A stretch of 64,000 bases of DNA from a virus. The stretch covers positions 1 to 64,000 of the IMG/VR virus record IMGVR_UViG_3300027985_000227; one strand, 5' to 3'. The notes beneath the pieces were generated by a model, which saw nothing but the letters and a program-made list of their open reading frames with translations, did no database searches and was not told the DNA's origin. Shown in pieces: positions 29,053 through 35,529 of the stretch. The translations under genes were made by a program, and so were the position numbers. Each line of letters begins with the position of its first letter. Position 1 is the stretch's first letter.

Positions 29053-30741
29053 ATGAATCTGCTTTTAACGTTAGGTCACAATAGTTCAGCCATACTAGTC
29101 AGCAGTAATGGTGAAGTTCTGTGCGGGTATGAGAATGAGCGTTTGACTCACGTAAAGTCAGATAGCAAATTTCCTATAGAAGCTATACAGGAAATAATGA
29201 AGCATCACTCTATTCCAGTGAATGTAAGTGTGTTCGTAAGCCATTGGTTTACAAACTGTATTCTCCCAGATCTACCAAATAAGTGGTGGGATCCAATAAC
29301 GTTATTCAAACTATTTCCAGAGGCTACTGTCTATTCTCTGGACAAAGACTTTACACACCATGATGCTCATTGCTATAGTGCGCTAGCATTCTTGGATAAA
29401 CCTGAATATAATGATCACACAGTAATAGTGTGCGATGGATTTGGTAACTTCGGTGAAACACTGAGTATCTACAGAGTTAACGGCTCTGGAAGAGAGCCAG
29501 AGCTAATTAAACGAGCTTTTGGGTACTCGTCTTCTCTTGGTTTATTCTATCAATATGCTACGGCATATTTAGGCTTAACAATGAACCAAGATGAATACAA
29601 GTTACTCGGATATGAAGCACACATATACGAGCATATTATATGTGAAAAGGGGTTACAAATTCTTTATAGGGAAGCAGAAAAGCTTTCTAGCAAATTTATA
29701 CAGGACATAGTGAGTTCATCTGTAGTTGACAAGTTTGATCCTATGCTATCCATAGACGCTCTTCCAGCTTTACGAGAAAACTACAGAGTATTTTTCGATG
29801 AGCTGTTAGCTGAAGTTAGATTACACAAATCCATGGAAATAGGTAAGATTCGTATAGCTATATCTCACTTTGTTCAACGAGTGGTAGAACAAACATTAGG
29901 ATACATAGTAGCGTCATACACACCAAAGGACCTGTTATTGGTTGGTGGTGTGTTCATGAATGTCAAGCTAAATAACTACTTGTCAAAAATAGCTCCAGGA
30001 TACACGTCAATAATGCCACTAGCCGGAGATCAAGGTGCTGCAATTGGTGTATACCACAGACATACTGGCAAGTTTAAATGGCCTGGTAATCTGTTCTGGG
30101 GCAAACGTCATTTATACCATATTGATAATGACATATTAATACGGCCTAGATTCAACACATTAGAAAACACAGTATCGGCCCACAAAGTAATTGCCGCACT
30201 AATAAGCCAAAACTATATTGTCAATATAGTACACGGTAATATGGAGTTCGGTGCAAGGGCTCTTGGTAACACTAGCACACTGGCAAGACCTACAGAAGAA
30301 AATGTTCGTTATATAAATCAGTGTAATGAGCGATCAACAATAATGCCTATGGCCGGTGCATGTAAAATTGAGTTTGCAGAGCAGATACATGGTGATGACC
30401 TGTATTCTATACATAAATCAATGGAGTATATGATCTGCACACGTGACTTCAAAAATACTGAGCACATTAAACTTCGTGGTGCTGCTCACTATGACCCAGT
30501 AGAACAAAAGTTTACTGGGCGCACACAAATAGTCAGACCAGGGAATATAATATACGATATTCTTAACCATACTGACGATGATGTACAGCTGGTTATAAAT
30601 ACCAGTTTTAACCCACACGGTAAACCTATCTTGTTCAACATGATTGATGTGATTAATGGTCATAACTTCATGATTGAAAGAGATATAGATGATCGTGTAT
30701 TCACCTTTGTTATAACAAGAGGCTCACATGTCCAAGTTTAA
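29053..30741 (+). CDS. Carbamoyltransferase (NodU/TobZ family)
   Basis: A 562-residue protein of family length. The N-terminal Kae1-like domain has LGHNSSAIL, FTHHDAHCYSA (His102, His103, Asp104, His106; metal and substrate site), VCDGFGNFGE and LLVGGVFMNVKLN. The C-terminal YrdC-like domain has GNMEFGARALGNTST and VINTSFNPHGKP. Family members use carbamoyl phosphate and ATP to carbamoylate hydroxyl groups. Directly downstream are genes for making a hydroxymethylated pyrimidine nucleotide, so the likely target is the hydroxymethyl group of the phage base. Coupled to the next gene. Confidence 0.9.
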   Translation: MNLLLTLGHNSSAILVSSNGEVLCGYENERLTHVKSDSKFPIEAIQEIMKHHSIPVNVSVFVSHWFTNCILPDLPNKWWDPITLFKLFPEATVYSLDKDFTHHDAHCYSALAFLDKPEYNDHTVIVCDGFGNFGETLSIYRVNGSGREPELIKRAFGYSSSLGLFYQYATAYLGLTMNQDEYKLLGYEAHIYEHIICEKGLQILYREAEKLSSKFIQDIVSSSVVDKFDPMLSIDALPALRENYRVFFDELLAEVRLHKSMEIGKIRIAISHFVQRVVEQTLGYIVASYTPKDLLLVGGVFMNVKLNNYLSKIAPGYTSIMPLAGDQGAAIGVYHRHTGKFKWPGNLFWGKRHLYHIDNDILIRPRFNTLENTVSAHKVIAALISQNYIVNIVHGNMEFGARALGNTSTLARPTEENVRYINQCNERSTIMPMAGACKIEFAEQIHGDDLYSIHKSMEYMICTRDFKNTEHIKLRGAAHYDPVEQKFTGRTQIVRPGNIIYDILNHTDDDVQLVINTSFNPHGKPILFNMIDVINGHNFMIERDIDDRVFTFVITRGSHVQV

Positions 30742-31126
30742 GCAGGTTGTAGAATTTAATAAGAATGTACTTGGCATTTCGCCACGTGATCTTGGTATGC
30801 AGAGTGAGGAAGAATTCAGGTTATCTGTTCATCAGCTAACAGAAGAAGTTCTAGAGATACAAGAAGCATATGAGGATAAGGATTTTATCGCGCTTATCGA
30901 CGGACTACATGATCTGGAATACTTCCTTCTCGGTGTAATGTATAAAATCGGTCTAACTGAAGATAAGCACGAGCAGATCTTTTCAGCCATACACGAGGCC
31001 AATACCAAGAAGGTACGAGGCACAAAACTTTCTCGTCAAGGTTATGGTGATAGTGCTGACGCTGTAAAGCCAGATGGTTGGGTAGCACCAGAGACCGCCA
31101 TAGCTCGTATATTGGAGGCAAAATGA
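30728..31126 (+). CDS. All-alpha NTP pyrophosphatase (MazG/dCTPase-like)
   Basis: A 132-residue helical protein with LTEEVLEIQEAYEDKDFIA and LIDGLHDLEYFLLG, the ExxE..ExxxD metal pattern of MazG-type pyrophosphohydrolases. In T4 a dCTP pyrophosphatase removes dCTP and feeds dCMP to the hydroxymethylase; the position here suggests the same role, but the substrate is inferred. Start and stop overlap both neighbours. Confidence 0.8.
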   Translation: MSKFKQVVEFNKNVLGISPRDLGMQSEEEFRLSVHQLTEEVLEIQEAYEDKDFIALIDGLHDLEYFLLGVMYKIGLTEDKHEQIFSAIHEANTKKVRGTKLSRQGYGDSADAVKPDGWVAPETAIARILEAK

Positions 31127-31641
31127 AGAGCATTATCGTAGAAGGTTACGATAACATGGGTAAGTCAACATTGATTGATGACTTACACCACACATCTTCA
31201 TTTAACTTTCCAATACACAGAGCAGGTCCACCAGCGCAAAACGATGCTCATGCCATTTTATGTTGTGAAGAGCAACTAGATAAAATGGTTCACCAATCGT
31301 CATACACGCTTTTTGATCGTATCACACCTATATCCAGGACATGTTACCAGTTTGACATAGGTGATCGTCACAGACGTACTCTAAGTATGTTCTTACGTGA
31401 AATGATGAGGCACTCTATCATAGTATGGTGCGATACTGATAACGACCCTGAATCACACGTAGTTAAAGAGTATGATACACCGGAGCACCTTGAATTCTTG
31501 CACAACAATGAATTCAAAATCATCTCGAATTATAGAGACATTATGGCATCATTGCCTGGTGTGATTCGATATGATTATAGAGCGCACAGTATAGACCAAC
31601 TTGTGGAGAAGATAGATGTCGCCGTTTCTAGCCGCCTATAA
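31123..31641 (+). CDS. P-loop nucleotide kinase
   Basis: A 172-residue protein from ATG 31123 (overlapping the upstream TGA). The Walker A motif is VEGYDNMGKSTLID (residues 6-19), and LFDRITPIS resembles the DR(Y/F)..S motif of dNMP and deoxynucleoside kinases. Inferred roles are phosphorylation of 5-hydroxymethyl-dCMP, as T4 gp1 does, or a polynucleotide-level kinase as in phages with hypermodified thymine. Overlaps the hydroxymethylase gene by 26 bases. Confidence 0.75.
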   Translation: MKSIIVEGYDNMGKSTLIDDLHHTSSFNFPIHRAGPPAQNDAHAILCCEEQLDKMVHQSSYTLFDRITPISRTCYQFDIGDRHRRTLSMFLREMMRHSIIVWCDTDNDPESHVVKEYDTPEHLEFLHNNEFKIISNYRDIMASLPGVIRYDYRAHSIDQLVEKIDVAVSSRL

Positions 31642-32407
31642 CGAACTGAAGACACGTGGACAACTTACAGCGCCGCGTGGACATCGGGTATTAGAGATAG
31701 AGGATTTCAGTATAGACTTCCATCCTATACTTGACCGATTCTCTAACTTCGATGCTCGTAAGATGAGCATCGACTATGCCAAGAAAGAGATGGCCTGGTA
31801 TCTTCGCGGTGATCGTTATGAAATGACGATCACAGAAGAAGCTCAGATGTGGAAACAGATTATTGACGTAGACGGAGGAATCAACTCCAATTATGGTCAG
31901 TATATTTTCCACGATCAATCACAGTACAAGTGGGTTATCGCCGAGTTAAAGCGAGACAAGGATTCACGACGTGCATCGATGATGCTGTTAAATCACACCC
32001 ACTTCAGACCAAATAATCCTGATGTTGTGTGTACGTATGCTATCAACTTCCGCATACGAAATAATCGTCTGAACATGTCCATACATATGAGATCATGGGA
32101 CGCCATATGGGGAATGACCAACGATGTGTTCTGCTTCAGTGTAATATACGAAGTAGTTTACTCGCTTCTTCGTGAACACTATGTAGATCTGCAGGTAGGT
32201 AACTACCACCACACAGCTGACTCATTTCATGTGTATGAGCGGCACTTCAAAATGCTGGATAAGCTCATATCAGATGGGATGGGCGGATACAAACCTGTGT
32301 ACTGTCCTACCATATCTGGCCACGAAGAAGCTAAGTGGTTAATTCGTAATAAATCAAAGCAACCGTTCCCGAAGTATCGCTTCAGTGAGTGGTTGTTTAC
32401 TGTATAA
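31616..32407 (+). CDS. Predicted dCMP hydroxymethylase (thymidylate synthase fold)
   Basis: A 263-residue ThyA-fold protein. The catalytic Cys is in PDVVCTYAINF (Cys139), the phosphate-binding Arg pair is at 118-119, and HMRSWDAIWGM, LQVGNYHHTADSFHVY follow the TS order. At the position of the Asn that selects dUMP in ThyA (GLPFN) this protein has Asp170 (GMTND), the change known in T4-type dCMP hydroxymethylases. With ThyX encoded next door for dTMP, this enzyme is free for base modification. It likely makes 5-hydroxymethyl-dCMP. Alignment was by eye. Confidence 0.8.
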   Translation: MSPFLAAYNELKTRGQLTAPRGHRVLEIEDFSIDFHPILDRFSNFDARKMSIDYAKKEMAWYLRGDRYEMTITEEAQMWKQIIDVDGGINSNYGQYIFHDQSQYKWVIAELKRDKDSRRASMMLLNHTHFRPNNPDVVCTYAINFRIRNNRLNMSIHMRSWDAIWGMTNDVFCFSVIYEVVYSLLREHYVDLQVGNYHHTADSFHVYERHFKMLDKLISDGMGGYKPVYCPTISGHEEAKWLIRNKSKQPFPKYRFSEWLFTV

Positions 32408-32417
32408 TGAGGTTGTT

Positions 32418-33140
32418 ATGGAAAAAATACAAGTTTTGGATCACGGGTTCGTTCAGCTACGTAACCTTTCTGGCCCAACAAGACGTGTCTTCGATGGTGA
32501 CAGTATTAGAGATTTTGACGGTGACGATACTGATCCAGCCAACAGTGCAAGGATGTCTTTTGACTCTATGGATTCTGGAAGAACTCGTGATGAAGATTTA
32601 CGGTTAGCTGAGTATTTGATGAAAAACAAACATACCACACCTTTTGAAATGATAGAAGTGTGGATTGAGATGAAGATGCCAATCTTCGTAGCTCGTCAGT
32701 TTGTTCGCCATCGTACAGTGACTATCAATGAGGTGTCAGCCAGATACGTCACACTTCCAGAAGAATGGTATATACCAGATGTGGTCGGCGGCAAAGCGGC
32801 CACTGCTAAACAGGGTCAGGAAGACACTTTGCCATTGGCTGTGCAAGATACGTTCAAGGTTGTATTAAACGAAGACTGTAAACGCAGTTATGATAGTTAT
32901 CTTGACTTCATTAATGTTGGTGTAGCTAATGAGCACGCTCGCCTTTTCCTACACGTTAACCACTATACCCACTGGTTATGGAAGCAGGACCTGCACAACA
33001 TCATGCACTTCTTAAGCTTGCGTGATCACAGTCATGCTCAAATAGAGGCGCAGCTTTATGGTAAGGCCGTAGACGCTCTACTTCGTCAGCATTTACCACA
33101 CTCTATGGAGCTTTACGACAAATACAGGCGGATGAAATGA
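32418..33140 (+). CDS. thyX: Flavin-dependent thymidylate synthase
   Basis: A 240-residue protein; ATG 32418 follows GAGG by five bases. The ThyX signature RHRTVTINEVSARY (RHRX7S plus RY) is complete, and FLSLRDHSHAQIEAQ provides the C-terminal substrate site. It converts dUMP to dTMP using FAD, NADPH and methylene-tetrahydrofolate. Presence beside a ThyA-fold homologue implies that the homologue has another job. Confidence 0.95.
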   Translation: MEKIQVLDHGFVQLRNLSGPTRRVFDGDSIRDFDGDDTDPANSARMSFDSMDSGRTRDEDLRLAEYLMKNKHTTPFEMIEVWIEMKMPIFVARQFVRHRTVTINEVSARYVTLPEEWYIPDVVGGKAATAKQGQEDTLPLAVQDTFKVVLNEDCKRSYDSYLDFINVGVANEHARLFLHVNHYTHWLWKQDLHNIMHFLSLRDHSHAQIEAQLYGKAVDALLRQHLPHSMELYDKYRRMK

Positions 33141-33219: not shown

Positions 33220-33408
33220 ATGACTGAAGAGTACACAGAAGAGGATTATGAACGTAGACATCAAAAGGCCGAAGAATTTAGTGTAGAATTCAAGGCTTTA
33301 GTGCGTAAGTACTTTCCTGAATATCCTGTAAACAGTTTTGAAATGGATTTACTGTACAACATACAAGATCGTACATCTTGTTTTAGTCCATATATTTGGA
33401 GTGATTGA
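33220..33408 (+). CDS. Small acidic hypothetical protein
   Basis: A 62-residue acidic protein starting MTEEYTEEDYERRHQK. Its TGA overlaps the ATG of the deaminase gene, so it is co-translated with it. No family recognised. Confidence 0.55.
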   Translation: MTEEYTEEDYERRHQKAEEFSVEFKALVRKYFPEYPVNSFEMDLLYNIQDRTSCFSPYIWSD

Positions 33409-33866
33409 TGAGACCGTCCAGAACCCAATACTTCTGTGAAATGGTTAAAGTTGTTGCATCTCGTGGGTCATGCAGACGACGTAAGGTCGGTTGCATCCTT
33501 ATAGACAAACACCATTTTGTTCTGTCTACAGGTTACAATGGTCGCCCATCAGGATTTGATAATTGTCTAGACCACCCTTGTGAGGGTGCTGATGCCAAGT
33601 CTGGACAAGATTTAGATAAGTGCGAAGCCATCCACGCAGAGGCTAACGCGCTTCTTCAGTGCCCTGATACAAATCGTGTATACAAGGCATACTGCACAAC
33701 GGCACCATGCATTCACTGTGTGAAGTTGCTGTTAAACACGTCATGTGAAGAAATAGTTTTTATCGATACGTACCCGCACGCTAACGTATCGAAGGAGTTG
33801 TGGGAGCGTGCTGGTAGAAAATGGACTAAATACGATGAAGACTATTCTAAACATTCTGACAGCTAA
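33408..33866 (+). CDS. Deoxycytidylate deaminase
   Basis: A 152-residue zinc deaminase. CEAIHAEANALLQ gives the HAE zinc ligand and proton shuttle, and TTAPCIHCVKLLL gives the PCxxC ligands. It converts dCMP to dUMP, which ThyX then methylates. Together with the upstream pyrophosphatase and hydroxymethylase it balances normal and modified pyrimidine pools. Confidence 0.9.
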   Translation: MRPSRTQYFCEMVKVVASRGSCRRRKVGCILIDKHHFVLSTGYNGRPSGFDNCLDHPCEGADAKSGQDLDKCEAIHAEANALLQCPDTNRVYKAYCTTAPCIHCVKLLLNTSCEEIVFIDTYPHANVSKELWERAGRKWTKYDEDYSKHSDS

Positions 33867-34443: not shown

Positions 34444-35529
34444 ATGACTACATCGACCAAGATACGTTTATACAAGAATCACATGAACTCTATCGGCTAT
34501 TGGGACATATGGTTCGTTGATAACGTAATTCATATTGAACATGCAACATGTGTAGGTTGTTCACCAGTTCACCACACAGAGACTGTTCATGAAGGCAAAC
34601 AAAGTCGTTCACTGCGTGAGCAAGTAATCAGTCGTATAAAGTCACGTGTCAATAAGCAATTAGATAAGGGCTATGTAAGGACCATAGATGAAGCACGAAG
34701 TGCTCCAACTAATACTCTTAATTTCCTTCAACCTATGCTAGCTCAAAGAATAGAGCGAGTATCGGGTATCAATTGGACAGAATCGTATATTCAGCCAAAA
34801 CTAGATGGGCACAGATGTTTGATAACTCGCTTTGAAGGTAACTTGGTTGCGTATTCACGACAAGGTAAGATCATCGATACCATTGACCATGTATTCGAGA
34901 TGTTGGCCGATCTGCCTGAAGGTGTAACTCTAGACGGAGAGCTCTACTGTGATGGAGTAAAGTTGCAAGAGATTGCGTCTTGGGTAAAACGTAAGCAAGT
35001 GAATACTGAACGACTGTCTTACAATGTGTTTGACTTAGTATCAGATAAACCGTTTAGTCAGCGGCACAGTGACTTGCTTAATATACTTAGTGTGGACGAA
35101 GAACGAATCCAACCTATACAGATCGTTCCTACTTACCAAGTAAAATACCTGCGTGACTTTAACATACACGAAAAACTACACGAATTCAGAAGTATGGGTT
35201 ATGAAGGTGTAATTGTACGACACAGTTCCAAGGGATACGAAGCCGGTCGCAGGTCACAATCTCTTGTGAAAGTAAAGCACATGAGCGATACAGAATGCAC
35301 GGTATCTGACGTAGAGCCATCTAAAGATGGTTGGGGTATATTGGTGTGTAAGACTGATGGTGGAGCTACATTCAGAGTATCAGCTCCAGGGTCATTACAA
35401 GAAAAACAACACGTACTTGACAATAAAGACCTGTATATAGGTAAACTGGTTACTGTAGAATTCAGCATGTACACCAAGGACAAAGTTCCTTTTCATCCTG
35501 TAGCGTTACGTTTCAGGGAAGATATTTAA
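34444..35529 (+). CDS. ATP-dependent DNA ligase
   Basis: A 361-residue ligase. Motif I YIQPKLDGHRC carries the AMP-linked Lys; LDGELYCDG (motif III-like), GYEGVIVRH (motif IV) and SLVKVKH (motif V) follow, then an OB-fold domain. An N-terminal extension of about 80 residues (NSIGYWDIWFVDN) resembles a WGR-type domain. It seals nicks in phage DNA. The gene is placed behind repeat copy 2 and its stop overlaps the convergent tail gene by four bases. Confidence 0.9.
   Translation: MTTSTKIRLYKNHMNSIGYWDIWFVDNVIHIEHATCVGCSPVHHTETVHEGKQSRSLREQVISRIKSRVNKQLDKGYVRTIDEARSAPTNTLNFLQPMLAQRIERVSGINWTESYIQPKLDGHRCLITRFEGNLVAYSRQGKIIDTIDHVFEMLADLPEGVTLDGELYCDGVKLQEIASWVKRKQVNTERLSYNVFDLVSDKPFSQRHSDLLNILSVDEERIQPIQIVPTYQVKYLRDFNIHEKLHEFRSMGYEGVIVRHSSKGYEAGRRSQSLVKVKHMSDTECTVSDVEPSKDGWGILVCKTDGGATFRVSAPGSLQEKQHVLDNKDLYIGKLVTVEFSMYTKDKVPFHPVALRFREDI

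Follow-up and report, generated by a model that had tools for sequence, protein, structure and literature searches.

A viral thymidylate synthase homologue with a cytosine-selecting aspartate, predicted to act as dCMP 5-hydroxymethylase in a carbamoyltransferase operon

The window, as the analysed stretch of DNA is called here, comprises 64,000 nucleotides (positions 1 to 64,000) of the IMG/VR virus record IMGVR_UViG_3300027985_000227. It harbors an operon with a gene of the thymidylate synthase (ThyA) superfamily, the product of which is the only PF00303 protein in the virus record (Table 1). The gene downstream encodes a ThyX with the motif RHR-x7-S, which probably starts at ATG 32418 and not at GTG 32385 of the longest frame. 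A glycosyltransferase was not recognised in the operon by Pfam domain search. In the carbamoyltransferase, I392, G405 and T407 correspond to W408, G421 and R423 of TobZ by motif spacing only, and this correspondence is not used as evidence.

Table 1. Genes and active-site features of the operon (window coordinates).
Feature	Position	Strand	Basis
Carbamoyltransferase (Carbam_trans_N/C), predicted 5hmC carbamoyltransferase	29053-30741	+	PF02543, PF16861; PHROG 1601
MazG-like nucleotide pyrophosphohydrolase	30728-31126	+	PF01503; PHROG 671
P-loop dNMP-kinase-like protein, Walker A GYDNMGKS	31123-31641	+	PHROG 761 thymidylate kinase, E 6.7e-11
ThyA-superfamily ORF, predicted dCMP hydroxymethylase, 263 aa	31616-32407	+	PF00303, E 5.1e-21
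Ser91-Asn92-Tyr93 (T4 S94-N95-Y96)	31886-31894	+	alignment; coordinates counted from ORF start 31616
Asp136 (T4 Asp145, water-activating in hydroxymethylases; Leu in ThyA)	32021-32023	+	alignment
Cys139 (nucleophile, T4 C148) and Thr140 (T4 T149, E. coli H147)	32030-32035	+	alignment
Arg159-Ser160 (T4 R168-S169)	32090-32095	+	alignment
GMTND motif, residues 166-170	32111-32125	+	ORF translation
Asp170 codon GAT, base-selecting residue (T4 Asp179, E. coli ThyA Asn177)	32123-32125	+	phmmer, MAFFT
ThyX, FAD-dependent thymidylate synthase	32418-33140	+	TIGR02170, E 2.7e-41, above cut-off; motif RHRTVTINEVSAR
dCMP deaminase	33408-33866	+	PF00383; PHROG 174
ATP-dependent DNA ligase	34444-35529	+	PF01068

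An earlier note on this DNA had placed Asp170 of the GMTND motif at the position of the Asn of GLPFN in thymidylate synthase. Residue correspondences were established by sequence alignments (phmmer, MAFFT), and structures were compared at the level of the fold. In a phmmer search against the PDB, T4 dCMP hydroxymethylase (1b49) was the top match of the window protein (E 2.8e-19), with D170 opposite T4 Asp179 and C139 opposite T4 Cys148, and MilA also showed Asp opposite D170. In the MAFFT alignment N177 of E. coli ThyA stood opposite D170, so that the placement was confirmed by both alignments; the interval given for it, 32118-32132, holds the Asp codon but is off the codon borders, as GMTND starts 7 bases further left. 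A one-residue misalignment of D170 is made unlikely by a gapless stretch and the flanking RSxD and G-x3-D anchors. At its C-terminus the protein shows no PVAI-like ThyA tail in the alignment but has an extension of its own ending FSEWLFTV. The FSEWL motif found there (window 32381-32407), which reads FTNWL, FTEWL or FSKWL in close relatives, perhaps forms a lid replacing the ThyA tail.

T4 Asp179 is known to select cytosine (PMC6400193), as the earlier note had said of the equivalent T4 residue, and the cytosine-specific residue of MilA is Asp186 (MilA paper). ThyA positions 177 and 147 are the best separators of modified and unmodified contigs (PMC8670742), and the window protein has Asp and Thr at these positions. 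The signature of dCMP hydroxymethylases further includes Asp145, located three residues before the Cys where ThyA has Leu, together with Ser94 and Tyr96 (PMC6400193). Each T4 hydroxymethylase signature residue tested is present in the window protein (E58, S91, Y93, D136, C139, T140, D170), and its catalytic and phosphate/deoxyribose-binding residues are E58, C139, R118, R119, R159, S160, H205 and Y207. At T4 positions 60/94/145/149/171/179 both the window protein and T4 gp42 read ESDTDD, ThyA reads EPLHDN, dUMP hydroxymethylases EADNDN and RB69-type 5-hydroxy-dCMP synthases ETETND. Positions 145/149/179 can thus be written as a code: LHN for ThyA, DNN for phage dUMP hydroxymethylases, DTD for dCMP hydroxymethylases, which is the pattern of the window protein, and ETD for 5-hydroxy-dCMP synthases. 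Leu/His/Asn was found in E. coli ThyA and in all 38 non-redundant ThyA of viral contigs. The latter set is a biased control, since the patterns used to gather it came from E. coli ThyA and His147 is part of one of them; PMC8670742 gives residue statistics with less bias.

A dUMP hydroxymethylase of the SPO1 gp29 type, which would make a thymine derivative the modified base, shares the fold and the water-activating Asp (T4 145) with the window protein. However, the SPO1-type enzymes of Goe10 and EalM132 and the ViI-related one of phiEa2809 have Asp/Asn/Asn at T4 145/149/179, that is Asn at both positions where the window protein has Thr140 and Asp170, and this combination indicates that the residue for hydroxymethylation varies independently of the one that selects the base. 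A sequence search for viral proteins related to SPO1 gp29 itself gave no match. Furthermore, dUMP hydroxymethylases were separated from the window protein in the tree, and a carbamoyltransferase from a comparable contig carbamoylates 5hmdC in DNA and 5hmdCTP but is inactive on 5mdCTP and 5hmdUTP (PMC8670742). This explanation is scarcely credible. In sequence alignments with T4 gp42, ThyA and dUMP hydroxymethylases, for which the earlier note had proposed a structure-based comparison, the specificity position was Asp and not Asn. The choice of cytosine over uracil as substrate is supported, at the level of sequence, by Asp170, the companion Thr140 and the adjacent carbamoyltransferase, whose relative takes 5hmdCTP but not 5hmdUTP.

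An AlphaFold model of the protein was obtained from an input of 35 window and viral-contig sequences (pLDDT 95.8, pTM 0.93). Its best solved structural match was MilA (Z 27, rmsd 2.2 Å over 250 residues), and further matches were T4 dCMP hydroxymethylase (Z 22.9) as well as ThyA and AfhB (9iqc, 9iqu; Z about 22). By fold, T4 dCMP hydroxymethylase, ThyA and AfhB are inseparable; it is the residues that separate them. In a tree from which 13 active-site columns had been removed, a quick tree with weak deep branches, the window protein fell on the side of T4; separate clades were formed by ThyA, by hmU and by hydroxylase proteins, the last of them with strong support.

The Pfam name of the window protein, Thymidylat_synt, would fit an ordinary thymidylate synthase, and the structural match to MilA, which also shares the cytosine-selecting Asp, would fit a CMP hydroxymethylase. 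As a thymidylate synthase, however, the protein scores far under every NCBIfam ThyA cut-off (at most 53 bits, cut-offs 108 to 405), and Asn177, His147 and Leu143 of ThyA are replaced by Asp, Thr and Asp. MilA prefers CMP, with Lys133 and Ala176 as ribose selectors (MilA paper), whereas the window protein has the deoxyribose-type residues Arg118 and Ser160, the Ser excluding the ribose preference of MilA. Neither assignment retains any appreciable probability.

From the Asp, together with ThyX, the earlier note had concluded on hydroxymethyl-dCMP. This holds for the base but not for the product, since MilA and the RB69-type 5-hydroxy-dCMP synthases share the Asp. The Mosigvirus enzyme is a 5-hydroxy-dCMP synthase (PMC13390438), and AfhB, to which RB69 ORF048c is nearly identical (9iqc), is a flavin-dependent dCMP hydroxylase (PDB titles, 9IQC, 9IQU). 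An enzyme of this type would place oxygen directly on C5 with cytosine still as target, and not only does AfhB match the model in its ThyA fold, but RB69 ORF048c also has Thr149 and Asp179. Asp and Thr therefore mark cytosine and not the product. All five hydroxylase-type proteins checked (RB69 ORF048c and four relatives) nevertheless have Glu145 and Asn171, lack Gly at T4 175 and carry Thr at position 94 (once Met), whereas the window protein, like T4 gp42, has Asp (Asp136), Asp (Asp162), Gly and Ser (Ser91) at these positions. They belong to the strongly supported separate clade, and the window operon contains a carbamoyltransferase and no recognised glycosyltransferase. A 5-hydroxy-dCMP synthase is accordingly very unlikely, and as judged from the sequences D136, S91 and D162 set the window enzyme apart from this group. 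Glu145, Asn171 and mostly Thr94 are common to the RB69-type synthases (RB69, L203:4498-5214, and L204-L207), and the Glu/Thr variants that PMC6400193 mentions as putative dCMP hydroxymethylases may belong to this type of hydroxylase.

What points to the hydroxymethyl product itself, also claimed by the earlier note, is the presence of D136, S91 and Y93, residues that it had not cited. These residues bear as well on a dCMP methylase of the Xp12 type, which would make 5-methyl-dCMP and for which engineered Asn-to-Asp thymidylate synthases that methylate dCMP (cited in PMC8670742) give a precedent. Methylating ThyA has Leu143 where the window protein has D136, Ser91 is present, and the T4 enzyme with the D145N mutation fails to produce 5hm-dCMP (PMC6400193). 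In addition, a hydroxyl is required by the carbamoyltransferase, whose relative does not act on 5mdCTP. We consider such a methylase highly improbable.

Conservation of the Asp was followed in viral loci that had been retrieved by the carbamoyltransferase profile alone. A ThyA homologue was found within the flank at 60 of the 65 loci with a close carbamoyltransferase and at none of the 13 with a distant one. All ThyA homologues of the close-carbamoyltransferase loci (67/67) carry Asp at T4 position 179 and, at 149, either Thr or Ser, and after clustering at 70% all 52 non-redundant carbamoyltransferase-linked viral homologues have Asp at both 179 and 145. Since D170 is moreover invariant across 42 aligned relatives, the Asp is not there by chance. 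At locus L024 the operon is otherwise similar to that of the window, but the ThyA homologue (27% identical) falls with AXL3 and HTVC200P in a different lineage, and it keeps the Asp; retention of the residue although the gene had been replaced points to selection on it. The operon order recurs in Xanthomonas phage Xp15, in the Acinetobacter phages HHU4, MD-2021a and Effie (carbamoyltransferase about 40%, ThyA homologue 36-40% identical) and in several viral contigs, mostly without ThyX; unlike in the window, no ThyX was found within the fetched stretch of the four phages.

It had also been argued that with ThyX encoded downstream, dTMP supply does not need the ThyA homologue. ThyX is indeed present, and homologues occur in related loci (L003, L025, L052, L063, L082, L084, L085) and in AXL3, but none was seen within the fetched stretch of most related loci, and the argument proves nothing alone. 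In AXL3, which encodes ThyX, the only enzymes that cut the DNA are those whose sites consist of A/T, and 35 others, with G/C in their sites, fail (PMC7504290); this pattern fits a modification of G or C without identifying it. AXL3 gp28 (L034:6968-7777), annotated as thymidylate synthase, has the same Asp and Thr as the window protein and, judging by these residues, is probably a mis-annotated dCMP-modifying enzyme.

With residues, fold, family position, the operon and its conservation shown by the analysis, we consider it highly likely that the window gene encodes a dCMP 5-hydroxymethylase of a cytosine-modification pathway with 5-carbamoyloxymethylcytosine as product. Substrate, product and the order of steps are taken from characterised relatives. 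Cys139 would attack C6 of dCMP, with cytosine N3 held and protonated by Asp170, and one carbon would be supplied by methylene-tetrahydrofolate, the cofactor being activated by Glu58. Water positioned by Asp136 and Ser91/Tyr93 would then attack the exocyclic methylene, and as these residues place the attacking water, 5-hydroxymethyl-dCMP is the expected product. The neighbouring kinase would phosphorylate this nucleotide in the direction of the triphosphate, and normal dCTP may be cleared by the MazG-like enzyme. The hydroxymethyl group would be the target of the carbamoyltransferase, on the nucleotide or in DNA. The predicted modified base is thus 5-hydroxymethylcytosine carbamoylated to 5-carbamoyloxymethylcytosine. 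Supply of dTMP could be kept up separately by dCMP deaminase and ThyX. A protein with Carbam_trans_N and Carbam_trans_C linked to an Asp-type ThyA homologue, as expected for the carbamoylation pathway, is found at the window locus. That the virus makes another cytosine derivative, for example by a carbamoyltransferase variant with another acceptor or donor, is unlikely.

The predicted hydroxymethylase is only about 29% identical to T4 gp42 (1B49, 1B5D, 6A9A), although the six signature residues, the fold, the cytosine-selecting Asp and the role in DNA modification agree; T4 has glucosyltransferases, whereas the window has the carbamoyltransferase, and the protein its own C-terminal extension. 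The MetaGPA contigs (PMC8670742) likewise combine carbamoyltransferase, Asp-type ThyA homologue, PRA-PH/MazG-like protein and dCMP deaminase, and ligase domains are also associated with modification there. In the window, in contrast, ThyX lies between hydroxymethylase and deaminase. Since that 2021 eLife paper had already described the 5hmC carbamoyltransferase, together with its gene neighbourhood and the Asn/Asp rule, the gain is one well-supported new instance, together with the caution that Asp alone fixes the base and not the product. Hydroxymethylation would very likely be the first step of a known phage DNA disguise. A base-selecting residue and two or three product-selecting residues may serve to predict the modified base of a phage, which argues for re-annotation of so-called thymidylate synthases such as AXL3 gp28.

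Two further variants of the ThyA homologue were observed. At carbamoyltransferase-linked loci, ThyA-like paralogues without the catalytic Glu (T4 E60 replaced by Met, Ile or Leu) occur at L036:3082-3891 and in L053, L056, L058, L060, L063, L065, L066 and L085; they mostly have Asn at T4 171 and keep the Cys and the selecting Asp. A second, intact-looking ThyA homologue lies nearby in L036, L053, L060, L063, L065, L066 and L085. Homologues with T4 E60Q are located directly upstream of the carbamoyltransferase in L027, L064, L070, L071, L076 and L092, and these have Glu at T4 171 and keep Asp145, Thr149 and Asp179.
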